NCBI GenBank assembly: GCA_030248295.1
Contig: JASANH010001374.1
Span: forward strand, 1,240,001 to 1,304,000
From: Mesodorylaimus sp. YZB2_4
Lineage: Eukaryota; Nematoda; Enoplea; Dorylaimida; Dorylaimidae
Reading direction: 5' to 3'
DNA: 64,000 nucleotides
A model generated the notes under the pieces. The model had not been told where the DNA came from and did not search any database. It saw nothing but the letters and a program-made list of their open reading frames with translations. This document shows, in pieces, positions 2,674 through 50,851 of the stretch (the stretch's first letter is position 1; the number at the start of each line of letters is the position of its first letter). A program made the position numbers and the translations under genes.

Positions 2674-3027
2674 TGCTTGTTGATTTAATTACACCAATCT
2701 AAAACGATATTTTTGGTTGAAAAGCGAGCGATTCGAACAAAAAAACAAAAAAACAGCAAAAATTTCAAGAACAAAATTCGAAATTCTACCGAAATTCGTT
2801 AGTCGTTAGGCGCGCACAACTTAATTTTACGCTTATAACGTCTCAGGTTCGAATAAATCGTTACCTTTCAGCAACAATTTCTTAAAATAGACAGTTTGCA
2901 GAATAGATTATTGCTAACTAAGATGTAAATTGCAGAAAAAATTTCAAAATAAAGTTAAAAACCTGTTTTTAACCAAATATCCGAAACTCAATTATACCGC
3001 CAACAGAACATCGGCACAAATATGCAG
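2674..3027. other. AT-rich spacer upstream of SMG7
   Basis: This spacer lies between the SMG7 start codon and the left end of the transposon. I see no gene. It presumably holds the SMG7 promoter. The outer 8 bases before the inverted repeat do not match the 8 bases after the element's right end, so no target duplication is visible here. Confidence 0.5.
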
Positions 3028-3682
3028 CCATATGTGCGTATGGCTCGGGAGCCCCTCCCCAGCAATACGTGTGTATGGCTGGGGAGGGGCTCCCGAGCAC
3101 CGGCTGCGTATGACATGTGAGCCCCTTTCCAAGCCATATTTAGTGCGGGACGCGGAGGGGTCTGCAAAAATTACAAAAATTTTCAAAATTCTTGCTTCTC
3201 ACTCGCGGTTTTTCGTTCCAGATTTGTGTTTTCAAGAAGAGGAGGAAGGAGTTTTATTCGTCTTACATCTGCAAGGTTGCCGAAGGCGGTTTGTGCCGGC
3301 GAAAAGAAGAAGCGCAAGAAGAGGAGGAAGGAATCTTGTTCGTCTCGTCCAAGACTACGCACGGATCATGAACTCTTGAGGTAAGCTTCTGTTTCTGTTA
3401 ATGTTTATGTTTCTGTTTCTTGTACATGTAGCCTACTAAATTGTGGCCGGTAGAGAAAATACCTTGAGCAGTAAAGTTCGATGAATTCACCTTGTAGCTA
3501 TATGTATCTGACTAGGCTACGTGTCAATTGAGATATAGAAAACGAATATGCAAATGAGACTGCCTAGATTTTTTTCGTTTCTAATTTGCTTGTTATTTTA
3601 TTTATAGACGTCTAAACGCGCTACATACGTATCAGCCTCGGAATCAGCTTCTGCGATGGATCGTTCGAACTCGTTAGAATTC
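3028..3682 (+). repeat. Left terminal inverted repeat (655 bases)
   Basis: The outer end reads CCATATGTGCG. The repeat includes a leader-type intron (3381-3607, GTAAGC...TTATAG) and the first nine codons of the + gene. In the stretches I compared with the right copy there is one clear mismatch (3618 G against the complement of 10499) and no indel. It therefore acts as promoter, 5' leader and start of coding for the gene it faces. Confidence 0.9.
3043..3098. repeat. Subterminal hairpin in left inverted repeat
   Basis: A perfect 21-base palindrome has arms at 3043-3063 and 3078-3098 and a 14-base loop. It begins 15 bases from the element end. Such GC-rich subterminal hairpins often serve as transposase binding or processing sites; that role is inferred. 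Confidence 0.85.
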
Positions 3683-6614
3683 TCTGACGAGTCTATGAAT
3701 TCACTTCAGGACAACTCGGATGCGAGCGTTGCCAGCGCTGATGCCAATTTACCTGCTTGCGAAACAAGACCCAAAAACACGCCACCTCTAAAGCGTAAAA
3801 GTAAGGTTTTACGTTTTTTTTTAAAAAGATTTTGCTGCTTAGTTCCGTTGATCTGCTATGTTCTGATCACATCGACCGGCACGAAGATTTAAAAAAAGAG
3901 TGTGAAAGTGTTCGAAAGTCTACGAGACCTCCAATTGTTTAAAAATGAAGGGAGTCTTAAAAATACAGGAAAGTCGTTTTGCAGGAGCATTTGATCAGGC
4001 GAATCCCAAGCAAGCAATTGCAGCAATTAAACGAAGCATCACGAGGAATATCCGAAGATATAGGCTAATTAACAAGAACGGCGAGAGTAATCCGATGATG
4101 ATGCTTTGCGTCTATGTTGATCGTCGTGGGAATTTTGGACGGTTCGGCAACCGGTTGCTAAAGAATGCAGTGGATGAGCCGCAGTTGGCCCGGTTTGTTC
4201 AAGCATCCGCCGACTGGAGCAACAAGGGAGTAAGTGGACGTGTTTGAACCACTGAATTTCTCCCTGACTGAGTTGGATCAGGTTCGTTTTTTTCATGTCA
4301 CTGATTGCAGGTTCTGGATTGCGAAGACTTGGACGAGTCTATGGAGAGCTCTTTACCGAAGATCAAGAAGGATGGTGCCTTCGCCAAGGCCGGAGGCCCA
4401 GCGCTGCTGAAACTTTTGCGCCAGGTCATGACCAAGCTGAATGGCGACGTTCGGCCTTTGGATATCAGTTATTCCAACCCAAATGCTCAAAAGAACTTTA
4501 CGATCGACCCGCAATCACCTATCTATCGATTCCTTGCTCCCGGACAGGTGCAGCGTAAGTTTTTTTCTGAAAATATGCAAGCTGTAACCGTAATCTAAGT
4601 TTACAAAGTTTATAAGAACAATCGAATCTCAGCAGATCAGAGTTCACGGACATGATCCAATTGATCCAATTTTCAGCAACCAAAGCCGATATTTTACGTT
4701 ACATCTTGCGTCACATCTATCTTCACTTCAATTGTTACGAGAACCTGAAGGATGGTGATGTAGAAACATTTACAAACTTACTCGGCGAAACCATAGCAAA
4801 GGATGGCACCTTCACAGTTCCAGATGCAGAGCCTTGCGAAACCACCATGTATGTGTGTGTTCAAACACGTTGACAGCGACACCAGCTCCTGATAACTCTT
4901 GCGTTTCTTTTTAGGCCTAAGACAACCTATGATCAAGAAATTCAAACAAGCTTCATTATCGGAAGGTTCGACTATTCTGATGAAAACATCGCATCAGCTC
5001 CGCCGTATGAGGTAAATTAGTTTTCTCCTTTTTGTCTTCATTTTCATATTTATTTTGAGAATTTATTTTGCGTAGTTTCGACCTGAAGAAGAATTCTTCA
5101 GTCAATCGCCAGCTGGATGTCGTTCACGAAACGAGGATAGTGCTTCACGAGGTGAGTCGTCGGCGACTAATTTCAGCAGAGGTTATAGTTCTTTTTTTAC
5201 ATCGTGTATCGTGGCGTTGAAGTCTGCTTCATTAACAAGTTTTCTTCCAGATAGTTCGTTGGTACATCCTGTTATGACTACTGGCAATCGAAACGCGGAC
5301 AAGCAAGCTTCGACACCAGATTCAAGTAAACAAGACAAGCGATTTTACTACTGCAGCTGTATTGGATTTCATTGATTGCTCTTTTCAGGCTTCGTTTTCG
5401 AGGATGAAACGGAAAACTTCGCTGGTTCGGAAGTTCCTGGTGGTATTTCTGCTTCTGATCAAGTCAACCCTCCGCAGTCGAATTCTTCTTTTATCGATGA
5501 TGAAATGAGTAAGCTGTCAACTTCAACGTATGCGTCTAGTTATTCACTTGTGTGCCCCTCTCAGATTTCGCTCGCGAGGAAGTTCGAGGAAGTCCCCGTA
5601 CGGATTCAGTTCCGCTAAGAAGCACGGAAAATCGACCGAAACGGGCCCGCCGTCCGCCGCAAGGATTTGAAGACTACATATTTGAAGATAGGCGCCGAAA
5701 CAATGCGAAGTCTGGTAAATTCTATGAGTCTTTTTTCATTTTACACATGTTTTTTTTTTAACCACGTGTCTACTTTAGCTCCGATGCCTCCGACAGCCGC
5801 TTCAAGCCCACGGCAAGAGGATAAGCAAGGGTTCGATTTGGTCAAGTTCTCTATCGATCAGATTGAGAGAGGCGAGCAGCTCTCGGATGACACGATAAAC
5901 CTTGTTATTGACTTGGTGAAATCGCGTGCAGATTTCGTCGGAGGATTGATCAAGCCGTCGATATTAGCCGTTCCAAAAGAGATTGCCCAATATCATCGTT
6001 TTGATTTCTCGAAGCTGGTGGTTCAAGTGCACAATATCGATCGTCATCATTGGGTTCTTAGCGTTGTCTCAGATGGTGTTTCTGTCAACGTTTACGATTC
6101 GTTGGCTTACTCGGATCGAGGTCGGAACAGAATAGAAGCCAGCTACGATCTACGACGCCAGCTCGTCGAGATGTATTGTGGACTAAAGAACGAAGATGGT
6201 GAAATCACAATAAATTACTTTTTGCTTCCTCGTCAAGTCAACGGTAACGATTGTGGCCTGCACGCCCTGGCCTACTTGATCGGCCTGATATTTAATGTAA
6301 GTCCGGAAGGCATTGTTTTGGATCATGCGCGTCTGCGACGCCATTTGAGCCATATAATTTCCACGGGTAACTTAGTCATGTTTCCGCACGCTCCTTGCAC
6401 ATCTCCAGCCCCTTCTATTCAGAAAGTTTTATCGGTGCATTGTTGCAAGAAGTCTCAGCCAGATAGCCGTTCTAGTTCAGCTAGATGGATTTTGTGCGTT
6501 ACTTGCGGTAAGTGGTATCATATGGCGTGTGTACCTCGAGCTTTGCGGCCAAGTGCCGAGAAAGAGTATAAAAAGGGTGATTACGCAAATTTTAATTGCA
6601 GTAAGTGCTTGTGA
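3656..6614 (+). CDS. Transposon gene 1: Ulp1-like cysteine protease with PHD finger
   Basis: Ten exons (3656-3800, 3985-4229, 4311-4554, 4677-4848, 4915-5011, 5076-5151, 5251-5325, 5389-5508, 5565-5714, 5779-6614) join in frame to give 719 residues. The last exon holds a C48/Ulp1 SUMO-protease-type domain. Its catalytic His is in DRHHWVL, the Asp in VYDSL, and the Gln and Cys in RQVNGNDCGLHAL. A PHD-type finger follows (CVTCGKWYHMAC, ending NCSKC). The first ~450 residues have no fold I recognise and include a basic stretch (RPKRARRP). Ulp1 proteases accompany transposases in several DNA transposon groups, where they may act on SUMO or on the element's own proteins. The first nine codons are shared with the transposase gene because both lie in the inverted repeats. 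Confidence 0.82.
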
Positions 6615-6899
6615 TATGGTTGAGCCTAGCTGGTATTCTGTTGTACTTGTGTTTTTACAGTCGGCTGCATTGCTTTCCATGTGCGATTGATCTGACGGTT
6701 GTACGGCCTTCTCATGCCATTATCACGTTGACGTGTTTCTATGCTCAAATGTTTGCTTTATGGGGTTTTTTTGCTTTATGTTTTGCTTGCTATGTTAAAC
6801 TGTGCTTCGCATTGTACATATTTTAATTTAATGCAGAATAGCGTAAACTGACATAGCTCAAGTCGATTCTGTAAACTTGTACAAGCACAAACAACCAAA

Positions 6900-9800
6900 T
6901 CATGAACGCACACGCAAAGGAGCATTGACAATTTTGCGTTCATTATACAAGAATAAGAAAAGTTGCAAATGGGACATGAACTTTTTAAAAGTCATAAATG
7001 ACAGAGACTTACGCAGCTTTTTCATACAAGAATTCAATTGTTCGGCAACCTGGGTGTTCACGTTGGGAAGCATCAGATCACCCGAGTACAAATTAATACA
7101 ATAACCTATGGAACACGCCCTATGATTGGCCCAATCGAAACGATCAACAAAAAACCTGACATTTCGAAACATGGCCGGCTCGCGTTTCAGACAATAGTTG
7201 TGTAACTTGCAGGCATTGTCGTAGATGACAACTTCGGGCATCGTTTCCGGTGAGAAACGGGTCGAGAAGACTTCGAATGGCATACGTGGACTTTCGAAAC
7301 TCTCCATCACTGTGTAGCCGTAGCTCACACCGTGCGGACATAGATATGCAACTATCCCAGGACCCAAGACTTTCCTCCGATTCTTGTACTTGTTGCACGT
7401 ATCAGCTGCGTCTTTTTGCGATCGTTCATCATCCGCGTACTTGCAGAAGCCACGCTGCACAGGCCAGTGCGGAAAGAACGCAATCCGTTGCTCGCCAGCT
7501 GTCGTGTCAGTAGGTAGCGGTTGTTCCAGATACGAAATCTCGTGAAGACGAGTTAGCTTCTGCAGTATCATCGCCAAAACGCCTCGAACATCGTTGGGCA
7601 GACCGTCAGCATGGAATTTGCGAATGGGAACCAAGCATTTCACCAGGCCAGGGCACATAAGCCGCAACTGCCTCACGGATTCCAAATGACGAGAATCTCC
7701 GATGTCCAGTGATCCGCAGACGATCCGTCTAACCTCTTGCATCGCCGTGCCGGCATCGCGCCTGAATTGCAGGAAACCACAAACGGGGGTGTTCTTCGAA
7801 ATTTCCACGAGAAACAGCTCGTACGCATCAGGAGCACGTAGACCGAGTGCCGATAGGCGTTGAATTAGCCGAAGCAGCGACGAATCTGGGAATTCCACAG
7901 CAACGCGACGCAAAAGCAGTTGTACATCGTCTTGCTGCATCTCTCGTTTCTTTCCATTTACTTCGCCGGTCGCGAATTGATGCAGAAGCCTGCTGCAAAA
8001 ACAATGTGTGTTTAAGCTTGACATTTTTAAGAAATACTCAAAGTTTAAAAATCGAGCAAGTTCTTTAAAAAGGCATTCTCGTCATAAAAACATTGGAAAC
8101 ATCCAAAACTTGCTCTCACCGTGTTGGCTGCTCAGTCAAGAAAACGCGATTGTCAAAAGACAATCCTTCCCGTGCCGACTGCTCTTGAAACGTACGAGGT
8201 GTGTGAATGAGCCGAATTAGATCCATCCGGCAAGAAAGCGCAGTACCATCCAAAACGATAACCCGCGGAAACCTGGTAAAGAAAAACCGCTGCAGCTGGC
8301 CAAATCACTTCTGCAGGTAATTCAGGGATGGGAAAGGATCTGTTTTTCACAGTGATGTATACCTTTTGCACAATGAGCACATGAATCCGGTCGCCTTGTT
8401 CAAGGTGATCAGATCCACAAAACCAGTCCAAGCTCGATACAGAATCTCGTACGAGATGACGCTTGTTGCCGCCAGATCTCTGTAAAAGAATTTTAGCCTT
8501 ATCAGAGCGATGCAAGCAGGTGTGCAAGCTATAAGTTTAAAAATAATACCTGGCCAGCCATTCGGATAGAGATCGGTGAAATTCGACCAAAGGCCTGCCG
8601 TCACATCCGTATTGCCTCATGAATTGGAATAAAAGGCCGTACTCCACGAAATAATGGTTGTTGACGTTGATAACGCCGATTTCATGCCCGTCAATCGCAA
8701 TTTTGCATCCGCAATCAGCACTCGCCTTCCTATAAACTTCTTTTGAGACAATGGCATTGTTCTTTGAAGACAGCAAGACATACCAGATCGAAACGGGTCC
8801 TCCACAATATGATCGGCCGTTGTGATCATAGATCTTTGATTCCTTCTTGACGCATTTTCTAATCCAGTCAGTTGCACCGTGAGGGCAGGGTTTACTGGGC
8901 GCCGGAGGGCAAAGATCACCTGAAATTTCGCAATGTGGTAGTTTCTTCGCTTTATCATTTTCTCCACACCTTACTTAAAGTCTCCTGGGAACTTGAGAAA
9001 TGCAATAAAATGTATCAGCTTACCTTGAAAAGGATACGTAAACTTTGAAAGAATTCCTTCCTGCAATTCCACTGGACGGTTGGATAGTACCAAGTGCTTC
9101 TCCGCCTCGGGCATCACTGGCGGAAGATCGATATCGAATCGCTCATGATTTTCAGTGAAAATCTTGCTGTGAATACACCTGAAATCGAACGGAATCTTAG
9201 AACAGGGAAAGAAACGCAACGGAAGAGCACTCACTAGCGTGAAATCAAGGCGTTTTCGCCGAATGAAAAAAGAGATCACTCACCATTTGCAACTGATGCA
9301 CGACAGATTTCCACGACCTCCTCTTCTAACCATTCCAAATTTACCATCAGCATCTCTCACCGACCAGAGCAAGGCTGAACGACTGTCGTGTAGCTCAATT
9401 TCGATTTCATCGGAATTCTCCGCAACTGGTGATAAGCTGATACGAAGTTCACCAACGGCAACACAATGGAAGCAGTATCGACGTCGAATACTATCAGCTG
9501 CTTCGGGTGTCATCGGCACGGTCGAATTAAGTGAACGGAGCTCCTCACGATGATCACGGCTGGCTTCGCACCCGCATTCCAAAAGTATCAAGTTATTCCC
9601 GCCTGTCCCGTTAACCTCGACTGACGTGACGATGGAAAAGCGATCTCTGCGAATCTTGTCATTGTCCGAATCCCAATCAGCGACTGCTGCAGCAGCGCCG
9701 TGTCCGAGAACGTAATAGCAACCACTGTTGATCAGAGCGCTCACGTACTTCGTCATTTCGGCCAATCCAGATACGAAGGGTTCCTCATTGACCATTGACA

Positions 9801-10461
9801 TATTTGTATTCTGTCCCGAAAAGGGATCCATCTCCCCTACTCCAATGAAAGGAAAAGGTAACGATTGAGCTGTCAGAGGCTCATTGCGATGTTTCTTCCC
9901 CAACTCGATTGGCGCCAACTCCGATAAGATCGAACCGTCGCTGATGTCATTTCGAAGCATGATCTTAGGCGGTGATTTCACGAGGTCTCGCAAATGTCGA
10001 GGCTTGACCCGACCAATGGAAGGCCCTGAATCAATGATTCCAGCGGCGCACTCCTCCCTTGGTACTTGGGATTTAGCGCTTGTGCGAATCAAGGAAGCCG
10101 CCTCGGAAATCGCAGTGCACTGACTTGGGGGGCATGACTTCTTTCGACGAAAGCTTGGGACCTCAGCGGTAAGGGAATAACTTGATAAAGCTTGATTGGC
10201 TGTTCGTCTGCCGTGAAAAACAGGAGCGACATCGATGAGTTCCAGCTTTCTCTGAAAAGACATACTGAAGACTTGCTTTAATTTCTTAAGTTTTTTCGTA
10301 ATTATATTTGGTTTGTCCCTAACGACATAAATGTCCTTATAAAAAGTAGTTCTGAATTGAAAATGATCCCAAATCACACTCAACGAACCCCCGAAAGAAC
10401 AAACCTTTGATTTGACACCGGCGGCATTCCCTGCGAATTCTAACGAGTTCGAACGATCCAT
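6900..10461 (-). CDS. Transposon gene 2: KDZ-like transposase
   Basis: Seven exons (10461-10405, 10251-9284, 9178-9024, 8919-8550, 8479-8363, 8272-8120, 7992-6900) join in frame to give 970 residues. The N-terminal half has a cysteine cluster (ECGCEA, CFHC, SCISC) and then CPP, CGC and CSLC pairs, like the CxC domains that precede KDZ transposases. The catalytic half has PRVIVLDGTAL, then CPHGVSYGYTV, VIYDNACKLH, DRFDWANHRACS and QVAEQLNS. These fit an acidic-triad transposase with an inserted zinc-binding segment. Motif order matches the Kyakuja-Dileera-Zisupton type, but I cannot confirm the exact family by eye. The start codon lies in the right inverted repeat. Confidence 0.75.
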
Positions 10462-11089
10462 CGCAGAAGCTGATTCCGAGGCTGATACGTATGTAGCGTG
10501 TTTAGACGTCTATAAATAAAATAACAAGCAAATTAGAAACGAAAAAAATCTAGGCAGTCTCATTTGCATATTCGTTTTCTATATCTCAATTGACACGTAG
10601 CCTAGTCAGATACATATAGCTACAAGGTGAATTCATCGAACTTTACTGCTCAAGGTATTTTCTCTACCGGCCACAATTTAGTAGGCTACATGTACAAGAA
10701 ACAGAAACATAAACATTAACAGAAACAGAAGCTTACCTCAAGAGTTCATGATCCGTGCGTAGTCTTGGACGAGACGAACAAGATTCCTTCCTCCTCTTCT
10801 TGCGCTTCTTCTTTTCGCCGGCACAAACCGCCTTCGGCAACCTTGCAGATGTAAGACGAATAAAACTCCTTCCTCCTCTTCTTGAAAACACAAATCTGGA
10901 ACGAAAAACCGCGAGTGAGAAGCAAGAATTTTGAAAATTTTTGTAATTTTTGCAGACCCCTCCGCGTCCCGCACTAAATATGGCTTGGAAAGGGGCTCAC
11001 ATGTCATACGCAGCCGGTGCTCGGGAGCCCCTCCCCAGCCATACACACGTATTGCTGGGGAGGGGCTCCCGAGCCATACGCACATATGG
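10435..11089 (-). repeat. Right terminal inverted repeat (655 bases)
   Basis: This is the mirror copy of the left repeat (position p pairs with 14117 minus p). It carries the same leader intron and start codon, here for the minus-strand transposase gene. The outer end reads CGCACATATGG. Confidence 0.9.
11019..11074. repeat. Subterminal hairpin in right inverted repeat
   Basis: This mirror copy of the left hairpin has the same 21-base arms and reverse-complement loop. Confidence 0.85.
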
Positions 11090-11377
11090 AAAAATATTCC
11101 TCCCTCACATCGGGCAAACCCGGAAATTTCGGATTTTTTGGTTCCAAAGGCCATCAAAAATTTTGAAAAAAGTCGTGTTTCTATCAAAAATAAAGAAGAA
11201 AAGCGAAATTATAGTTTGATTATTTCGATGCGGCGGCGCAGGTACGATTTGAAAAAGATATATTAGACCGGCAGTAGCCTCGTTTCAAAGATTTCCCAAG
11301 GGAACAAATTTTGTTTGTTTTTATGGTCGCTGATGGCATTTTTTCTGTTTTAGGCTTCTCGATTGATTGCCAACGTA

Positions 11378-13865
11378 ATGCTCACATCGGACGACACCGT
11401 GCCAGCTACATCGACTGTTTTGAACGGTGCACGCGCGCCGGCGACCCCGTCGAACAGAAGTTCATGGTTTTCGGATTTTCGAGCCAAACTCAATCAATTT
11501 AATGCTTTGGATTTCTTCTCCAATCTCGGTTTCGCATCAAAACAGCAAAACGTGGTCGATTCGGGCACTCGCAAAACGTCGATTCGCGGCGGCGCCAGTA
11601 GTGGCGCAACCGCCGTCAGCAGTCGGTCGGTCATGAATTTGAGCTCTGAAATGGGCGAATCGCATTTGTCTCCGACAACTACGAAGGACAAGTTTCTCTC
11701 GGCCGCAATGGGAAGTGAAATAGCCGCCAGTAGTCGACATCACAGCGACGAACCGCGGCGTCGACTTTTCGCCGCCAATAGCTCATCGATCGAGAAGAAA
11801 GAAGAAATCGAACCAATCTGGAGAATGAAACAGAAATCGGAGCCGCCCTATTACCGAGGAGGGGGTTGGCAGGAGGACGACGAACGACCATCGCCCTTCG
11901 TGCCCGGCGATTACGACAGTGCCACTATGACACTGGACAATGCGGGCGTCGATGCGGTCAGCGCGTGCGATGGGCATCGATTCGGCACCCTGTCCGGTCT
12001 GATACCGATCGGCAAACGAGACCCCGGAGTGGGCCACGCATTCGAGTCGGCCCCCGCTGGCTATCCAACTTGGTGCGATAAATGCGGAGATTTCATTTCC
12101 GGACTTTACGAAGGTCAAGCGGTCAGATGCAAACGTGAGTGCTGGCTATTTTTGCACTTTTTCAAAGTTTGAAACCCTTGTTTTCCGGAGCTTGCTTCAG
12201 TTTTGATCTTCGAAGTTATAGGAGTGGATATTCTATCTGCACCCATCAGTGCTGGGAACTGGTCTGCCTATCCTTGGGGATTTCACCGGGCGGTCAAATT
12301 TCGCATTGAGTCTCCTGGTTTTGCCGTCTAGTTTTGTGGGTTTGACTAGTTTTTGCGGGTCTCTTAAGGGTATTTTTACTCAAAACAAGCTGACTGGGTG
12401 TGGGACTCGTTGTTAACGGATGCCATTTCAGACTGCCGCTTCACGTGCCACGTTCAGTGTCAGCCGTTGGTCACTCTGGATTGTCGATCTTCCACCAACA
12501 GCTTGAAGTCGGAGGCGTCGTCGGCCGATCGTACGACTGCAGTCGACAGCGAATTGGCGGCCACCAACGAGACCGAGGACGCGCTGAGCACGCCCGTTGA
12601 GCACGAGTCGCTGATTGGAACTGAGGTGAGCCAGTGGGCTTTGTCCTGCCACTCTGTCACCAAGCTCGGGCCCGCCCTCCTACCAATACTGTACGACTGG
12701 AGTGGATTACTGGGGGAGTGACCAGTAGAGCTTATGGCAGCCAACCAAATCTTCCAGTCTGGTCCATTGCTGAAACATCACCCTGGGCCGTCAGGGTGAT
12801 GCTCCAGCAATGGACCATGCGGAGGAGCAGTTGCAATCAGGCCCAGCTTGTCGCAAGACTGACCATGTCTGTGTTGCAGACCACTGAACTGAACGATGGT
12901 GACGCGGAGGAGATCAGCCGAGTGCTGGACGAGGCGACGGCCTTACATGATCTACCGCGGGGCGAGACCCTGCGTCGTCTGATCGATGAGTACAATAAGC
13001 ACATCGCCGACGGCCTAGCCATGACCTTGGTACGGTTCGCCTTGCGTGGGTGTGGTCCCCCTCTGACTGGCCTGGTTTTCAGGAAGAAGACGGCATCACG
13101 TTCCAAGGATTCCTGCAAATCCACATGAATTTCAGTCGTCCCATCAACGTGATCGCGGGCGAGCATCCGCCCAGCATCTACGACGTGCTCGTGTCCGAGA
13201 ACGACGCCGATGCATCGCCCACCGATTACTCGGCATCGGTGGAGGGAAGGAGGACGATCACCTCCTTCTACCTGCCCCGAAACACGGTCAAGGTGCTGCA
13301 CATCACCAGCGAGACGACCACCTCCGAAATGATCGTCTCGTTGTTGAGGAAGTTCAAAGTGGCCGACAATCCCAGGAAGTTCGCCCTCTACGAACGAGAC
13401 CTGGAGCCCGGCGGGACCCTGCAGTGTAAGTCCTCGCGGGCGGCGAGGGCATAGTCGAACTCACAATCAGTTTGGACTTTTCAGCGCGACTGGTGCGAAT
13501 TGCCGAGGAAGCGTGTCCGTTGCGGCTGGCCTTGTTCTGGGGAGTCAGGAGAAAGGCGGGCAGATTGGTTCTGCAGGAGAACGAGACGGGTGACATAATG
13601 GTCAGGTGGTGCCGGGGTGTCAGTGCCGGCCTGATGACAACTTTGCTCTTTTTAGTGGGAAGCCTTCGAAATTCCGGAGCTACAAAACTTTTTGAGAATA
13701 TTGGAGCTGGAGGAGGGCCAGTACATCAAGCAGATCGAGCACAGGTACTACGTGTACCGCTACTGGCTGGAGGCCGAGATTAGGCATCGATTGGCCACGA
13801 GGGCGCAGAGCCAGGCGAGCGCGCCCAGCACCGAGTTCGACGACGAGGGGGCCGTCGAGGTGTGA
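11378..13865 (+). CDS. RASSF: RASSF1/5-type Ras-association protein
   Basis: Exons are 11378-12134, 12432-12625, 12880-13029, 13083-13425, 13485-13600 and 13656-13865. After a disordered N-terminus a C1 domain spans the first intron (HAFESAPAGYPTWCDKCG, then CRFTCHVQC). A Ras-association domain follows (FLQIHMNFSRP, TTTSEMIVSLLRKFKV, FALYERD). A helical SARAH segment closes the protein (IPELQNFLRILELEEGQY). RASSF proteins bind Ras-type GTPases and dock Hippo-pathway MST kinases through SARAH. The first in-frame ATG is 11378, 25 bases after a CTGTTTTAG acceptor, so a 5' non-coding exon is likely upstream. The spacer 11090-11340 shows nothing else. The C1 plus RA plus SARAH order makes the call secure. 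Confidence 0.9.
12761..12816. repeat. Imperfect hairpin in RASSF intron
   Basis: Arms 12761-12785 and 12792-12816 (25 bases, two mismatches) flank a 6-base loop inside the intron between the exons ending at 12625 and starting at 12880. It could be a relic of a small fold-back element. No function is evident. Confidence 0.75.
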
Positions 13866-13968: not shown

Positions 13969-15783
13969 CTAGGCGAATTTGAGATAGTAGGTCCAGTACA
14001 CCACGTCTGAAACGAACCACAGTCAGGGGGAGACTCGGCATGGCTGAGATATGTTTACTGAACAGGGAGAAAGCCAGGGGGAACGCGATGCGGCAGGACT
14101 GGTCGATCTGGTGGGCCATGTGCTTCTTGGACTTGATGTACTGCTTGCAGCCGTAGGGGTGGTAGCCGTACGGGTAGCCGCGGGACTCGCGCCGCCCCGG
14201 GTGACGCAGCTGAAATGAGGGGAGTACAGGGAGGGTGGTTGGCCGGGGGGCACTGACCTTTTGTTCGAGGGCGGCCATCTCCCGGCTGACCGGCAGGTCC
14301 AGGAGGGGCTTGTCCAGCCCGTTCGGCTCCTGGTAGTGGATGAGGCCGGCCGTGGCCCCGCCCAGTCGCTTGCTCTCGACCAGCATCAGCTCCGCCGTGG
14401 TGAACTCGCGGGTGGTGGCCTTGGCCGAACGGGCTAGGAAGTTGACGATGGTGAACTCGATGAGCACGCCGAACACGAAGCCCAGGCACGCCTCCAGCCA
14501 CACGTCGATGGCCTTGGCGTAGCTGACCTGAAACGGGGGGGTTTGGGGGGGGGGGGGGACGGGGCGGGGCCAACCTGAGGTAGCGACATCCTGGCCGACG
14601 AGGCCTGCGTGGCCAGCGTGAGCAGGGTGGTGATGCACAGCGAGACCCGGCCCGGCACCGACTCCACGTCCAGCCAGAACGAGAACCTAAAAGTGTGTGT
14701 GTCAGCAGTGGCCGTGCCGAGGGCGGGTCTCACCAGCTGATGATGACGATGAGGATGGTAGGCACGTAGTTCTGCAAGAAGTGATGCATCTTCTCCCTTC
14801 GCAACAGGAATTCGGCCCGCACGCAACTCCAATTGCCTGAAACGGGGGTCGTGTGGTGGGTGACTTGGGGGAGGGGGGGGGGAGGGACTGACCGTGGGTG
14901 TAGTAGCCCTCGCAGTATCCGGGCTCCACGCCCACCAGCTGCATGTCGGGCAGTTTGAGCTGGTCGTTCATGACGATCGGCTCGCGGTCCCTCCACGATA
15001 TGTTCAGCTGGTCCTCGGTGTAGGCGTCTGCGCCAAAGAGAGGGTGTGGCGGGGGCGGGCGGGCGTGGTGGGCACTTACAGCTGAGGATACGCATGTCGC
15101 ACTTTTGGCTGTCCAGGGGGTACTTGGTGAAGTCCATGTTGCACAGCACGGTCAGCGAGATCCTGCAAAGGGGCCGGTGAGGGGGGACTGGGCGATGGGA
15201 GCCTACCTCAGGTCGTGGTGGACAGTGCCGTTGGGGAATATCCAGAGGAGGAAGTTGGGCGCGGTCACGTCGAAGAACTTGGCACTGTTGGCGTTGGCGA
15301 AGTAGAGGTCGGGATGCCACATCCTCTCCAGGATGGCCGTGTCCTTGATCAGCACTCGCTGGCTGCCGTTGTGCCTGAGACGTTCGTCGACCCATCGCTG
15401 CTCGAAGTATATGTCCGCGTGGAAGTCCTAAGAAGGCAGGCTACAGTGGGGGGGGGGGGGGGTGAGGCACCGGCTTGCTGACCATGGTCTGCGCCCGCAC
15501 GGACGACATGCCCTCCACGTAGATGCCGATGGTGATCTCCGTGACTCGACCTAAACGAAGCACATGCTCAGCCGGCACACAGGCCGCTCGACGTACCCTC
15601 GGCCTGCGTGGGGGTCAGGTACTTGTCGTATCCCGAGTTGAGGATGGCGATGATGCCGTTCGGACTGACGATGCTGAAACACAGGCTGGTCACACGTGGC
15701 CAGGGGGACCCACTGTCCTACCTGGCACTGCGCACCACGGTCGAGAGCAGGGCCACGAGGGTGGCCGCAGTGACCGCAGCCAT
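13969..15783 (-). CDS. Cys-loop ligand-gated ion channel subunit (GluCl/GlyR-like)
   Basis: Eleven exons join in frame to give 439 residues. There is a signal peptide (MAAVTAATLVALLSTVV). The extracellular domain carries the 13-residue Cys loop (CNMDFTKYPLDSQKC) and a second cysteine pair (GYCEGYYTHGNWSC), typical of glutamate- and glycine-gated channels. M1 is VPTILIVIISWFSFWL. M2 is preceded by VPGRVSL, where anion channels usually have PAR. M3 is DVWLEACLGFVFGVLIEF. The M3-M4 loop is long, and M4 ends VVYWTYYLKFA just before the stop. Anion selectivity is inferred from overall similarity. The ligand cannot be told from sequence; invertebrate amine- or pH-gated chloride channels are alternatives. 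Confidence 0.88.
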
Positions 15784-16127: not shown

Positions 16128-18178
16128 TCAGAGTGCCTCCAACCGATCTTCGTAGATGGCCAGCACGAGGATGATGACGAAGCCCAGCAGCAGCCCCACG
16201 TTCTGCAGCACCATCGACACGTACCACGGCAGACGACCAAAGTCCCGTATTTCGCGCAGCTAAAACGAGGAGCCTTGTAAGGGACAGTTTGGCCTGTGCT
16301 GGCGAAGAGTAGCACAGGCTCGACTCCTCAGTCACCCGGGTCGTGGTCTAGCGGCAGGTCTCACTCGCAGGGGGTTCCACTCCCGCCCGGGTAAATGTGA
16401 TTGTCAACTGTCTTCCTTGTCACTCGAGTGCTCTGATAAAGTTGACAAAGTGTGTGTGTTACCGACCTGCTCGTTTGTCCCTAAGATGGTGACTCAGGCA
16501 GTTGGCGGCAAGCACATGGAAAAATGTCATCTTTTGCGCGCGAGCATGTTTCACAATCATCGAGTGCCCTGACATGCGTTCTTGTGCGAGCAGGTGCTGT
16601 GATAGATCTCCCACTAAAGGCTGCCTGAGTCTAGACCAGGGTCGCGGTCAAGGCATCTGCCTCTCACTTGGAGGGCAGGGTTCGACTCCCGCCTGGGAGC
16701 CGAGCACTCGAGGACTTAGGAACACATAATGGGCCAATCATTTTTGGGCCAGGCGGGAGTCGAACCCTCCCGTAAGTGAGAGGCGGACACCATGATCCCC
16801 CGAGCCAGGGGTGACTTACCATGTGCACGAGGGCCACGTAGAGAAAGCCGCCCGCCACGGCAGCGAATATCCATTGGCGCAGGGACTCCTGCTGGCCGGC
16901 GACGATGCCCGGGTACAGTCCCGCGAAACAGGTCAGGGCCGAGACGAAGTTGAGTAGGAGGGCCTTCTTGACCGACATGCCCGAGCTGAGCAGAATGGCG
17001 AAATCACCTGCGCAAAGCAGCCTGTATTCCCCGATGGGGCCGGGCAGCCTGGCTTACCAACTTCGTGGGGCAGTTCGTGGCAGACGACCGCGATCGAGAC
17101 GGCCAGTCCGGACGACACGCTCTTGGCGAATCCGGCGCCCATGGCCAGACCATCGGCGAAGTTGTGCAGGGCGTCGCTGACGACCACCACGAACGCCACT
17201 GGCTTCATACCTGCCAGCCGAGCACTCAGACAGGGGGCATACAAAGTGTACAGGGACCTACCGCATATGGTGTGCGCTCCCCCGATGTGGCCCCCGTGGC
17301 TGTGGCCATGGCCGCGGCCCGACACGTCCTTCAGCTCGATGACACTCACCTCCAGCGTGGCAGTCTTGTCGACCACGTGCGAGGAACTGTCCGCGACACA
17401 CACGCCCTGCAATACAACGATTACAACACGGGAGGCGGGGGGGGGGGGGGGAGTCACCTTGACCAGTCTGGAGGCCGAGTGCGCAAACAACTCGAGCAGG
17501 TAGAGGGCGTAGATGGTGCCCAGCAGGGCCACCATCTTGCCCAGGTACGGTTTCTCGTCCTGTCCCGACGGCTGGTTGGCGTGCGTGTGATTGGGCCCCT
17601 CGTCGTGGCTGTGCCCGTGCAGACCAACTGTCTGAAAAGTACACCCTTTGCTCGACTGTGGTTCACAATCAGCCGACTGGCAAGCTGCGCAAAGCCAAGC
17701 ATTTATTCTGGGCCATTGGTGCTAGCAGTCTATCGTCGGGTGTTTCAGGCGAGCTCATTCTCTCGTGACACAGCAAAGCAAACGGGAGGCGGGCGCGGAT
17801 TGTTTGCTTACCTCGGGAATAAGGTGTAGCAGGGCGTCGGAGGCCATGGTGCCCGCAGCCATGGCCATGAAGACCAGCATGGTGCCGTCGTAGACTCGCT
17901 TACGTTTCATGAATGGCAGCACGGCCACGCCGGCCAGCGAGAGCACGGAGACGACCGAGACGGCCAGGGTGCCGTACAGGTAAGCTAGGGTGCGGACAGT
18001 ATTGGCCGGGGGCACCACTCGGCAGCACACACCTACCTTGGCTCACCGACCACCCGTCCTCCGACTTGCCCGTCCAATTGCCGGGGGGTTGCTCGTGGTG
18101 ATCGTGGTCCCCGTGGGCAGTGACCGCCTGCAGGTGACCGGCCACCAGCAGCCATAGCATGCGCCCCGCTCTGGCCAT
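16128..18178 (-). CDS. SLC39A: ZIP family zinc transporter (LIV-1 type)
   Basis: Seven exons (18178-18037, 17984-17812, 17631-17458, 17406-17262, 17210-17058, 17007-16820, 16259-16128) join in frame to give 368 residues. After a signal peptide there is a histidine-rich N-terminus (HGDHDHHE). Further His clusters lie in the central loop (HGHSHDEG, GHGHSHGGH). The metal-transport core has HNFADG in TM4 and CHELPHEVGDFA in TM5, the latter split by an intron, as in LIV-1 subfamily members such as ZIP6 and ZIP10. The last exon encodes the final helix (VGLLLGFVIILVLAIYED). The family moves zinc into the cytosol. The protein is shorter than vertebrate ZIP6/10 because the His-rich ectodomain is small. 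Confidence 0.9.
16332..16395 (+). repeat. tRNA-like sequence, copy 1
   Basis: A Pol III A-box-like GTGGTCTAGCGG is followed by a B-box-like GGTTCCACTCC, between ACCCGGG and CCCGGGT ends that can pair. It is about 60 bases, too short for a full tRNA, so it looks like a tRNA-derived repeat. It lies in the last intron of the ZIP gene. Confidence 0.5.
16636..16700 (+). repeat. tRNA-like sequence, copy 2
   Basis: Contains GCCTCTCACTTG and a canonical B box GGTTCGACTCC, with CCAGG and CCTGG able to pair at the ends. Same intron as copy 1. Confidence 0.5.
16741..16800 (-). repeat. tRNA-like sequence, copy 3
   Basis: On the minus strand it reads GCCTCTCACTTA and then GGTTCGACTCCCGCCTGG, close to copy 2 in inverted orientation, so copies 2 and 3 form an inverted pair. 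Confidence 0.5.
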
Positions 18179-29937: not shown

Positions 29938-31074
29938 CTAAAGCACCTCGTTAGCATTCGAACAAGCGCATCCCGTGCGGCCTCGTTGGCCGTCGCTCAT
30001 CACCAAATCCTCGATGGCCGTCACCTCGTCCTGTTCTTGCCTTCTCTCGTCTTCCGCATTCTTCAAAGACAAGTGTCGCCTGGGTCGCGAGCGGAACTCG
30101 TCCAGTTGGTCCAACAGGGCGCAGGCGTGGCACAATTGGCGGCTGGAAATGCTGCCGCACCGAACGCAGATGGACTTGGAACGGGCGATGTTGAGCGAGG
30201 CCAGTTTGGACGAGTCCATCGATTTGCCGCCGACACTGGCCGCCATTCGGGCCAGTCGGGTGCCGGATGCCAGGATGTCGAGGATGGATCGCGGGCGGAT
30301 TCTTTCGAACTGTTTGATCAGAGTCCTGACGTGGCCGCGGTAGGCGTTGGGGGCGTAGAGGCACTCGGTGGCGAAGTAGGTGAGTCCGAGGAAGCGGGCG
30401 TAGAGGACGATCTCCTTCTCGTAGCACCTGAACAGGGGCTTCACGCGGGGCACGTTCTCGTCGGGCCCGCCCCTGCCCAACGGCTTCACGCATCGTTGCA
30501 GACGAGCCAGGTCGCCGCGGAGCAGGTTCATCAGCACAGTCTCGGCCACGTCGTCGGCGTTGTGGCCGGTGGCGAGCTTGGTGGCCGAGCACATGCCGGC
30601 GCCCCGTTCCAGGGCCTGTCGCCTGAACACGCCGCAGTAGGTGCAGTTGCCCCGCTTGCCTACGGCGCCCACCACCCTGTCCATGGTCCAGCCCGCGTAC
30701 AGCTCGTCGTAGGAGAGCACTCGCAGGGGCAGCCCGTACCGTCGCTGCTGCTCGTCGACCGCGTCCAGCGAGTGGTCCCTGTAGCCGACTATGCCCTCGT
30801 CCACAGCCACCATGACCAGCTCGATGCCGTAGTCGTGCCGACGGTTCAGTTCGTAGAGCAGGTGCAGCAGCACGGCCGAGTCCTTGCCCCCCGACACGCC
30901 CACCGCGATCACGTCTCCCCGCTCGAACAGGCCCTTCTTGACAATAAATTCGTGAACTTCCGATTCCAAGGCGCCGATGAAACACGATCGACACACGGCA
31001 GATCGATGGGCGGGCAAGTGCGATCGACGGAGCTGGGCCGGGCATCGCCCGCACGAACAACACATAATCACCAT
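29938..31074 (-). CDS. CTU1: Cytoplasmic tRNA 2-thiolation protein 1
   Basis: Single-exon gene encoding 378 residues. CTU1 with CTU2 adds the 2-thio group to the wobble uridine of Lys, Glu and Gln tRNAs. It opens with a zinc cluster (CCSCGRCPA, CRSC), then the PP-loop SGGKDSAVLLHLLYEL, the CTYCG pair used in catalysis, ATGHNADDVAETVLMNLLRGD and KPLFRCYEKEIVLYA. The C-terminus has another zinc motif (CVRCG, CHAC). I chose the ATG at 31074 (MVIMCC); the frame is open further up but has no ATG. Lack of introns is unusual for this neighbourhood. Confidence 0.95.
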   Translation of the reverse strand: MVIMCCSCGRCPAQLRRSHLPAHRSAVCRSCFIGALESEVHEFIVKKGLFERGDVIAVGVSGGKDSAVLLHLLYELNRRHDYGIELVMVAVDEGIVGYRDHSLDAVDEQQRRYGLPLRVLSYDELYAGWTMDRVVGAVGKRGNCTYCGVFRRQALERGAGMCSATKLATGHNADDVAETVLMNLLRGDLARLQRCVKPLGRGGPDENVPRVKPLFRCYEKEIVLYARFLGLTYFATECLYAPNAYRGHVRTLIKQFERIRPRSILDILASGTRLARMAASVGGKSMDSSKLASLNIARSKSICVRCGSISSRQLCHACALLDQLDEFRSRPRRHLSLKNAEDERRQEQDEVTAIEDLVMSDGQRGRTGCACSNANEVL

Positions 31075-31171
31075 TTCTTTCTTCACAATAAACTTTGTTT
31101 CAGATGATTTCAAGAAACTAAACCATAACGACGCAATAATTCACTAATAGTTACTGTAGACAAAATGTTGC

Positions 31172-47407: not shown

Positions 47408-50400
47408 TCAATTTTCTACTGCGGGTGTCTTTTTTTGGAATGTGTTTGGATCTGGCTGGCTGGCCTGGAATGTCTTGAGCAGTCCCGCCTGGCCGTGCTC
47501 GTTGGCCGCCTGTCTCTGCTTGATCACTATCTCGACCACCTGGCCGGGCAGTCGCTCGGGGCGCAGTGCCAGCGAGGTGTTGGGCGGGCTGTCGTAGACT
47601 GGGCTGGCCGACGTGGTGTGGGCGTACTCGCCACTGTTGCTCGACGTCCAGGCCAGGGACGACGCCTGGCCGCCCTCCGACGGCTCCGCACGCCTCTCTG
47701 GCTCGGGCGGGGTGGTGCGGGGACGGTGGGCGAAGTAGGCAGCCAGCCGTCTCTTGGGCAGTGTGGCCGAGACGTAGGCCCGGACTCGGCTGTAGTTGTT
47801 CGTTTCCAAGTACACGTCGGCGGGCACGAAGGCGGAGAGGGCGATGGGCAGGAAGACCAGTCCGTGCAGCAGTCCCAGCGATACGACCAGCACGACCGTC
47901 TTGACGAACGTGCGCACCATGTACCTGAAACGAGGGGCAGTGTGCGGGGGGTGGGGCGGGCAAACAGCGACTTACGAGTCGACCAGGGCCAGTGTGGACG
48001 CGCCCAGCACGGTGGCCGCCGCGCTCTGGATCGACGACCAGCCGGCGTGGTGGAGGGCGTCGCGGAGTCTGAGGTAGGGGGTGGCGTGCTGGGCGATGAG
48101 GTAGTGGTAGGTGACGTGGGCCACGTAGTCCACCGACAGGCCCACACTCATCACCGTGGTCATCATGCTGACCACGTCGACCTGCACGCCCCACAGCGCC
48201 AGGTAGCCCAGCACGCCCACGTTGATGGAGAGCACGGACAGGCCGATCCAGACGGCGCACAGCAGCTTGGGCAGGAAGACCAGCACCACGCACACGATGA
48301 CCCCCGTGGCCACACCCGCGTCCTGCAGCACGCACCCCAGCACCGCGTCGTTCTGGTCGGCCAGCAGGAACGAGAGCGGGTCAGTGATGAAGCCGGGAAG
48401 TGCCGACTCCCTGAATCGCCGTCTGAGGGTGTTGACGGCCGCGCTCTGGTTGCCCGCCCCCGCGTGCCGTAGTCGGACGAGCATCCTGGTGGCCGCCACC
48501 GACCGTCCGTCCTCCGACCACACCACGTCGTCCCTGAAGGCCGAGTGAGGAGCCAGTTCGAGGAAGGCGCGCACAGCACGCGAGAATTCGGTCTCGCTCG
48601 ACAGCGCCCGCTGGTCCATGGCCTGAACGAACTCGCCGAGCCAGAACTCGCCCGTCGAACTGAACTCGGTGTCGCACAGCCGCTCGTACAAGCCGACCAG
48701 TCGGGCCAGGGTCGGCGCCTGGTGCAGTTGCAGGCTGTCGGTGAAGACCACGGCGTGGGCGTAGCCGTTGTAGTCGGAGAAGTGGGCTTCGGTCACTCGA
48801 CGCTCGCCGATAATGTACGAGTCGTAGGGGACCAGGTTGGACATGTTCAGACGCAGCTGGCAGCGGACCAGCCCGTACACGGCCGAGGCCAAGTAGCCGC
48901 AGTAGACCACCACCATGGCCGCCTTCACGCACTTGTTGTCCATGCCAGCCGCCAGCAGCGAGCTGAACTTGAACGAGGCGCGTCTCGTGCCGTGCGTGCG
49001 TGCCCGCTTGGATGCCAGACCTGCAACACAGACTCAGTGGGCAAAGTCAGGGGGCAGTGTCCACTTACCCGTCTCGGGCACGACCCTCAGGGTCAGGCAG
49101 TGCCTGTTGGCCAGCTCCCGGCGTCCGCAAAACGTCAAACAGGCGGCGAAGAACGTGGTCTGGTAAACGAAGGCGAACAGGATGGCCACCGCGCAGTAGG
49201 TGCAGAAAATACCTGCGACAGGCCCTCAGTTAGGCTCGGGCAGATGGGGAGGGGGAGTGACTTACGGACGGCGGGGAACTGAGACGCACTGCCGACTGCG
49301 AACGAGAGGCCGTCGGTCAGAGCCGTGATCAGGATGGAGACTGCCGACTGCGACACGGCCGACGACATGCGCCGCTCCAGGTTCGACTCCCCGCTCGAGT
49401 CGCGCCAAGCGCTCAACATGAGGAAGGCATTGTCGGCGCACACGGCTGAAAGACAAGGTGAGTTGGCGGGGCTGGCGGGCAGAGCACAGGGCACTTACAC
49501 AGGACCAGAAAGGGCATAATGACCACCACTTGCAGGTACTGGTACTCAAAGTAGAATAGGACCCCGAACGACGACGTGACGGCCATGAGGGCCGAGAGCA
49601 GTCCGCACAAGCCCAGCCACGGCTGACTGCTCACCCAGTCGGTCGAGCAGCAGCACAGCACGCAGAACACCAGCAGCACGCCGAACAGGGCGGGCAGGTA
49701 GGCCGTGAGCAGGTGGCCGTTCCTCTCCATCTCCTCCTTCCACGACGACGAGGACGAGGCGTGCGCGGACACGCCCGCCACCCGCGTCGTCCTGACCACA
49801 TTGACGAACTGCCTCTGCCACAGCTCGTTCAGGGCCCTCCTCTCCGCACTGTCGCCAGTCTGCAGCACGAACGGCAGGCGCAGGGCCGAGGCTCTGTTCA
49901 TGCGTCCCCCCTCGCCCACACTGACCGATCCGAAGACCAGGCTGTTGTCGACCACGCGATCGCCCAGTCTCACCGTGGGGTAGGTGAGCAGACGGGCGAG
50001 GTCGGGCGTGTTCTGCTCATTGGCCTGGCTGTAGTTGAGCATGGTCAGCAACGGGTGCTCCACGCACCGCCCGTCGGATTGCTGGGCGCACAGCGTGCTC
50101 CAACCGGCCTCCATCCACCCGGCTTTGACCCGTATCCGCTTTATACGTTCCACAAGTTCGGCCGTCGTGCGAAGCACTCGCGGGCTGAGCACGTCGCCCC
50201 CGTCGTCGGCCGTCACGACCAGGTAGGCGTAGGCCGACTGGAACAGGTCGTAGGAGTCCCTGGCCGAGACGGGGAACAGCGATCGCAATCGACGCAGATC
50301 CCTCATCGATTCCGAATTCTCGGGCAGGAACAGCCGGAAATGAGCATCGGCATCGACCTCTCTGGCCTTGACGAACATTCCCGCCGTGAGGAGTGCGGCC

Positions 50401-50498
50401 GCTGCCGATGAGCAGAGTATGAAAAGCAGGGGCCACTTGGCCACCAAACGGCCGAAATCCTTGAAAAACTGTTGCACTATTCGTTGAAACTGACACAT
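47408..50498 (-). CDS. Patched-related (PTR) membrane protein
   Basis: About six exons. The layout is that of Patched/Dispatched/NPC1-type RND proteins: a first span near the N-terminus ([19 protein letters not shown]), a large outer loop, a sterol-sensing-like bundle ([33 protein letters not shown]), a second outer domain ([18 protein letters not shown]) and a second bundle. The second bundle has [18 protein letters not shown], which includes the GxxxD proton-relay motif of the family. The tail is Pro/Ser-rich. PTR genes are expanded in nematodes and act in cuticle formation and lipid transport. The first-half TM4 motif GxxxD is not obvious (CADNAFLML instead). Family assignment secure, substrate unknown. 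Confidence 0.88.
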
Positions 50499-50851
50499 GC
50501 TAATCGAAACAGCACCCGCGGGCGCACTGCACAGTCCAACAGTGCCGACGAGGAGGACGAGGAAACGAGACGCGGCCTACATCCTCGGCCGCAACACAAT
50601 ACAAGGCGGTCGTGGTGGGGCGAGGAAAGGGAAGAGGAAATGCGGTCTCTTATTCACACTACAACTATTGCACATATTTTCCGACCTCATCCTCTCGTGA
50701 AAACACTGATCCTATTTTGTGCCGTGAACCAGTTCATACGCACCCAATGCACGCACATGGTCGGGCACTGTACATGAGATAACCGGCACACACTCAATGG
50801 CAACTGACTAAAGCTCTCATCACTTCATCACCCACCACCGTGCCTCGAGAT

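Follow-up and report, generated by a model that had tools for sequence, protein, structure and literature searches.

Several described DNA transposons share parts of their organization with the element reported here. In maize MuDR, two convergent genes are driven by promoters that lie within terminal inverted repeats (TIRs) of ~215 bp (PMC3440606; PMC3310237). Mutyl, a yeast relative of Mutator, makes a 9-bp duplication (PMC5014426). Among the KDZ elements, Cryptococcus KDZ1-3 have TIRs of 139-241 bp and duplications of 8 bp (KDZ1) or 4-8 bp (KDZ2/3) (PMC12810828). Zisupton makes an 8-bp duplication, and Kyakuja, which lacks TIRs, one of 7 bp (PMC12730594). KDZ/Zisupton elements are already known in the nematodes Pristionchus and Plectus (PMC9297572). 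Ginger1 is a DNA transposon with a C48 protease and, in one family, also a PHD finger; Ulp1-type domains were proposed to act in transposition, for example via repair factors (PMC2836005). All these descriptions are taken from excerpts of the cited papers. Here we describe a two-gene DNA transposon, assigned to the KDZ type, in the nematode Mesodorylaimus sp. YZB2_4. It lies in a stretch of 64,000 nucleotides (assembly GCA_030248295.1, contig JASANH010001374.1, positions 1,240,001 to 1,304,000), which we call the window. One gene codes for a predicted C48/Ulp1 protease, the other for a predicted transposase, and both predicted start codons lie within the TIRs.

The two inverted arms, each 655 bp long, differ at a single base (position 3618), in the 5' untranslated region (UTR) of exon 2. 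The last 27 nt of both arms, ATGGATCGTTCGAACTCGTTAGAATTC, hold an ATG and eight further codons. As claimed by the first-pass annotation, both gene models read MDRSNSLEF in frame up to the ninth codon and diverge thereafter. Its second claim, that each repeat carries the same leader-type intron, held for a predicted intron of 227 bp ahead of the ATG, which is identical on both sides. Counted from the tip in bins of 25 bases, arm identity was 25/25 as far as the inner edge, save for one bin of 24 that includes the mismatch. Past this edge it dropped at once to 1-9/25 per bin, which is chance level, and a gapped alignment was equalled or bettered by 72 of 300 shuffles. That the edge falls on a codon border is expected by chance in one of three cases. 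In the tip-most 25 bases the two ends differ at six positions, all within the outermost 12 nt. Because the identity is nearly uniform, intron included, and the inner edge is abrupt, the arms point to one recent copying event rather than to separately constrained parts. The unlike outermost 12 nt and the abrupt inner edge therefore bound the homogenized tract on both sides.

A GC-rich palindrome near the outer end of each arm is a possible transposase-binding region. The leader exon inside each TIR also holds two imperfect 31-bp direct repeats (CAAGAAGAGGAGGAAGGA...TTCGTCT; 3233-3345 in the window), seen in cross-matches of the arms. A DNA search of the 145-Mb genome with the arm, using a program that skips very common words, found no match besides this element. 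The tip pattern, with three mismatches allowed, had one forward and one reverse match genome-wide, both at this element.

Protein searches of the same genome revealed many relatives, with at least 56 matches for the transposase and at least 35 for the C48 protease, this locus included. The matches lay on 34 other contigs. Stretches were assembled from 23 of these, many of them partial, and 11 were left aside; extra flanks were taken for ten of the 23. Both genes were present in 15 of the assembled contigs, tail to tail in every case, while four had only the transposase and four only the C48 protease gene. Some relatives form nearly identical pairs (C723/C973, C354/C695 and C19/C20), and the independent cases are therefore fewer than the contig count.

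The position at which the TIR stops relative to the protease start codon was compared by measuring both from the tip. For the element in the window, the TIR inner end is 667 and the C48 protease ATG 640 bases from the tip. The corresponding values are 273 and 318 in C19, 201 and 332 in C313, 203-223 and 338 in contig C48, and 210 and 254 in C695 (measured against C703). All four comparable relatives have TIRs of 200-270 bp that end 44-135 bp before the C48 protease ATG; C313 and contig C48 are one DNA family, which leaves three families besides this element. Copies with genes starting outside the repeats, which the first-pass annotation had named as evidence against its reading, were found here for the C48 protease start, in four of four cases. 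Of the elements compared, only the one in the window has a TIR that extends beyond the protease ATG. The C48 protease N-termini also differ: MENAGVVSDQ in C19, MDVAGTSEID in contig C48, MDVVRTSEID in C313, MNETSNGQSD in C695 and MEGACMHTPL in C151. None of the five resembles MDRSNSLEF, and only those of contig C48 and C313 are alike.

C19 offers a further comparison. A plausible leader intron was found there by eye, with its donor within both arms and the TIR similarity ending near the acceptors. Between the arm and the ATG, the two sides of C19 resemble each other only faintly (a score reached by 8 of 500 shuffles).

Other repeats were considered as TIRs and dropped. On the small contig C1067 (1-6393), an inverted duplication of 1.9 kb (97%) lies around a C48 protease gene piece, and either an error of assembly or a rearranged copy may account for it. 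In C695 and C354, the inner repeats hold what is, by eye, transposase-like coding sequence, and a 117-bp repeat pair in C660 sits inside the transposase gene. Two relatives have a disturbed structure. Contig C48 carries a cluster of inverted transposon-tip copies (580700-580800) next to an element for which the C48 protease gene alone was found, which suggests a nested insertion or rearrangement. In the C20 copy (C20:1-1259), the left side is swapped for unrelated sequence, and the 5' part of the transposase is absent. The replacing sequence resembles, by eye, what we take to be a Helitron-type gene.

The ends of the element were placed by the tips of its relatives, which have AGGYAT[A/G]... 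in common. Counted by eye, 10 of 14 positions agree with the C19 tip AGGCATATTCAGCC both in the left tip ACAAATATGCAGCC and in the right tip AGGAATATTTTTCC, and the right tip was also matched in the tip listing with four mismatches. By this placement the element is slightly longer than the first-pass span of 3028 to 11089. CATATG, which is palindromic, and AAATAT were dropped as target duplications, because the relatives' tips put the ends 12 nt further out on each side. Exact target duplications of 8 bp, all in a single register, were present in three relatives: C19 (CTTACTCG), C6 (GTTCATCG) and C313 (CTGGCTGG). The C6 duplication was predicted from the left tip and subsequently found at the right end. 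For the element in the window, ACATCGGC and ACATCGGG are a tentative target-site duplication; the chance of such a match is ~0.004, with seven offsets allowed.

Both gene models, whose splice sites were picked by eye, are open without a frame break, and the element appears intact as far as its sequence can tell. The gene 1 protein matched PF02902 (Peptidase_C48) with 33 bits, above the cut-off of 20.7, and the PHD model with 22.8 bits, below the cut-off of 24. Its catalytic set H532, D548, Q594 and C600 is present, as aligned with yeast Ulp1 (1euv). All four residues are kept in the alignments of seven of 19 relatives; in the rest, at least one of the four is replaced, falls in a gap or is unaligned. 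With both the domain and the His-Asp-Gln-Cys set, gene 1 would code for a C48/Ulp1 protease. The gene 2 protein has the Asp-Asp-Glu (DDE) residues D564, D865 and E924, which were assigned by motif and not by structure. All three are kept in eight of the 11 relatives in which all three positions are aligned. The exceptions are C151, with an N at the first position, and C660 and C675, each with a G at the third. A K occupies the third position in C723, C973 and C860, where the first is unaligned. Pfam searches with both proteins (E up to 1) and with the last transposase exon (E up to 10) gave no match to the MULE transposase, so that on domain content the element would not belong to the Mutator superfamily.

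Table 1 Features of the element, with positions in the window. Gene models, introns and target-site duplications are predictions.
Feature	Position	Strand	Details
KDZ-type two-gene DNA transposon	~3016..~11101	.	Ends by homology to AGGYAT... tips of relatives
Tentative left target-site duplication, ACATCGGC	3008..3015	+	7/8 bases identical to 11107-11114
Tentative right target-site duplication, ACATCGGG	11107..11114	+	4 nt further out than the relatives' register
Left TIR, near-identical core	3028..3682	+	655 bp, 1 mismatch vs right arm
Right TIR, near-identical core	10435..11089	-	655 bp, 1 mismatch vs left arm
Subterminal GC-rich palindrome, left TIR	3043..3098	+	Sequence and TIR self-match
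Subterminal GC-rich palindrome, right TIR	11019..11074	-	Mirror of the left-TIR palindrome
Predicted leader intron, gene 1	3381..3607	+	GTAAGC...TTTATAG, 0 mismatches to mirror copy
Predicted leader intron, gene 2	10510..10736	-	Mirror of 3381-3607
Gene 1 ATG and next eight codons within TIR	3656..3682	+	MDRSNSLEF, read from sequence
Gene 2 ATG and next eight codons within TIR	10435..10461	-	MDRSNSLEF, read from sequence
Gene 1 model, C48/Ulp1 protease with PHD-like finger	3656..6614	+	10 coding exons, 719 aa
Gene 1 coding exons	3656-3800, 3985-4229, 4311-4554, 4677-4848, 4915-5011, 5076-5151, 5251-5325, 5389-5508, 5565-5714, 5779-6614	+	
Gene 2 model, KDZ-type transposase	6900..10461	-	970 aa; 1021 aa with the first intron (153 nt) left in
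Gene 2 exons	10461-10405, 10251-9284, 9178-9024, 8919-8550, 8479-8363, 8272-8120, 7992-6900	-	

Taken as a whole, the locus is probably a two-gene KDZ-type element driven from its TIRs, in which homogenization of the TIRs recently overshot into coding sequence. The analysis supports the first-pass view of a KDZ-type transposon in which the transposase and C48 genes converge and the TIRs carry the leaders. The outer part of the TIR, with the tip and the GC-rich palindrome, would be the probable substrate of the transposase. The inner part would provide an inward-firing promoter, a leader exon and the leader intron. From where the TIRs end in the relatives, and as in maize MuDR, it is plausible that a TIR carrying promoter and leader is the general plan of these elements; co-expression of both genes from TIR promoters is plausible too, with MuDR as a close precedent. 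The transposase and the C48-PHD protein would then be made together from the two ends, by transcription converging in the middle of the element. Conversion or a template switch between the two ends would recently have run on into the first coding exon and left both genes with an identical ATG and identical first nine residues. These identical residues are most likely a by-product, and the tag itself would need no function. The sequence anatomy, the open gene models and the catalytic residues are seen directly, as are the convergent pairs, the TIR and start positions and the 8-bp duplications of relatives; that the TIRs act as promoters, that the leader is spliced, that translation begins at the shared ATG, that conversion took place and that the protease has a role is inferred.

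Several observations weigh against this account. The last exon of gene 2 reached 24.4 bits with the KDZ model (PF18758; E 2.7e-5), just below the cut-off of 26.6, so that of the two protein families named in the first-pass annotation only Peptidase_C48 passed its threshold. The CxC4 cysteine cluster likewise scored 24 bits (E 3.7e-5), just below its cut-off of 26.9, and the locus was not among the seven matches of a genome-wide KDZ search (E up to 1). The KDZ-type assignment is based on kinship rather than on the element's own score: the model is above its cut-off in C824, C20, C388 and C607, whose best matches to the gene 2 transposase are 44-58% identical. The element's TIR has no meaningful DNA similarity to the stretches of the 23 relatives, and layouts were therefore compared by position and not by sequence; the single match, of 22 bp, lies in the transposase regions of C695, C703 and C354. 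C6, C763 and C660 have no TIR arms long enough for comparison, and C151 has only short and weak ones (48-53 bp at 79-81%). The transposase-side ATG of C19 opens a frame of only 21 codons. As for target duplications, the relative on contig C48 matches at three of eight bases in the register and has no matching duplication. In C703, the duplication predicted from the left tip was not found, and neither was a right tip in the extra flank. The element itself matches at only one of eight bases in the relatives' register, which gives no duplication there. Finally, counted from the tip, seven ATGs lie upstream of the shared ATG in the predicted leader, among them a three-residue frame just ahead of the intron donor. 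Initiation at the shared ATG is therefore only inferred.

Five other explanations of the arms and start codons, and one extension of the favoured account, were weighed. The predicted leader intron could be an outron. A spliced leader would then be trans-spliced at 3607/3608 and 10509/10510, and the mRNAs would share only arm exon 2. The source genome is that of a nematode, and trans-splicing is common in nematodes. In keeping with this source, the nematode-specific family TTR-52 has 27 matches in the genome, all above the cut-off, and none in 14 control genomes. Against an outron speaks an upstream consensus donor, GAG/GTAAGC. A search of the genome for SL1 gave no match, but its control was silent too, which makes the search uninformative. 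We consider an outron rather unlikely.

The whole long TIR might instead be a mechanistic accident, left by abortive gap repair or a template switch, with a shared leader that has no regulatory role. The abrupt inner edge, the near-uniform identity and the single copy fit such an event, as do the measurable arms of the relatives, which are only 200-270 bp long. However, the relatives' arms also reach within ~135 bp of the C48 protease start, and the C19 arm spans the leader intron predicted by eye, as expected of a promoter-bearing arm. An accident of this extent is, in our judgement, unlikely.

A more speculative extension, to which we give little credence, is that the TIRs serve as symmetrical, interchangeable expression cassettes. 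With promoter, leader, intron and start codon alike at each end, recombination between the ends would flip the interior and leave the genes unbroken, and the two proteins would stay co-regulated. In C19 and C313, tips of type A (ATATTYA) were found beside the transposase; in C6, and in contig C48 with its unmatched duplication, they were found at the protease end. Flips or an exchange of tips would produce such a placement, in tip classes that rest on few bases. If true, this extension would give a reason why long, near-identical TIRs are kept.

Translation of the transposase might also begin outside the TIR, at an ATG that is codon 67 when the frame is left unspliced. No stop interrupts the 153 nt of the putative first intron, and the open frame holds this later ATG. 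On the other hand, the ATG in the TIR is in frame with the spliced and the unspliced version alike, and the internal ATG sits within the putative intron, next to a TTTTCAG acceptor. An internal start is quite improbable on these grounds.

Selection on the N-terminus was the functional part of the first-pass annotation, in which the short shared peptide would co-target or co-assemble the transposase and the protease. Both frames do have the same ATG and the same eight following codons. The relatives lend a shared tag no support, their C48 protease starts being different and unlike MDRSNSLEF. Moreover, the intron and UTR in the arms are as identical as the codons. If selection kept the shared peptide, drift of the intron would be expected, and none is seen. 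We regard a selected tag as very improbable. An assembly artefact, that is an inverted duplication of one end, has a precedent in this assembly on the small contig C1067, but is hardly credible in a window that sits in a 1.3-Mb contig, with arms that differ at one base and in the outermost 12 nt, with flanks that differ, and with TIRs that are expected in such an element and present in its relatives.

The element lies among host genes. One flank holds an EST1/SMG-type gene (PF10373; 189-2102, minus strand), the other an open frame (11354-12169, plus strand) with a C1-domain match of 21 bits, below the cut-off. Further along the window, all on the minus strand, are a piece of a ligand-gated ion channel (14733-15440; match below the cut-off), a ZIP zinc transporter (16936-17721), a PP-loop ATPase with a zinc ribbon (29941-31140) and a Patched/sterol-sensing protein (49416-50576).

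The favoured reading, a TIR-driven KDZ-type element with overshooting homogenization, can be set against the known systems as far as the excerpts of the cited papers describe them. With Ginger1, which is Ulp1-bearing like the Ulp1 Mutator elements, it has the C48 protease in common and, with one family, a PHD-like finger (PMC2836005). There, the protease is a C-terminal domain of an integrase-like transposase, whereas here it is encoded by a separate, convergent gene beside a KDZ-type transposase. With the KDZ elements (Zisupton, Kyakuja, Dileera and Cryptococcus KDZ1-3) the likeness lies in a putative KDZ transposase with a cysteine cluster, both just below their cut-offs here, in the TIRs of some of them and in 8-bp duplications, which are exact in three relatives of the element and tentative in the element itself. 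Neither a convergent C48-PHD partner gene nor start codons within the TIR are described in the excerpts on these elements. Searches of open-licence papers aimed at these features, part of which returned next to nothing and carry little weight, listed no KDZ element whose C48-PHD gene is separate and convergent, and no TIRs reaching over both start codons. The closest likeness in layout is to MuDR, with convergent genes for a transposase and a second protein, promoters in the TIRs and a transposase-binding site also in the TIR (PMC3440606; PMC3310237). MuDR differs in its transposase superfamily and its shorter TIRs, and the excerpts on it mention neither a leader intron nor shared codons in the TIR. 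The convergent arrangement was found in the window and in all 15 contigs with both genes; it is a likeness in working and not in membership. This nematode element combines a stand-alone C48-PHD protease gene with a proposed TIR-as-leader plan like that of the unrelated MuDR, and driving both genes from the ends would suggest more than one independent origin of that plan. It also appears to catch TIR homogenization as it enters coding sequence, a route by which transposon genes could swap their 5' ends. By analogy, the layout looks like an extreme case of the shared-promoter plan already known from maize.

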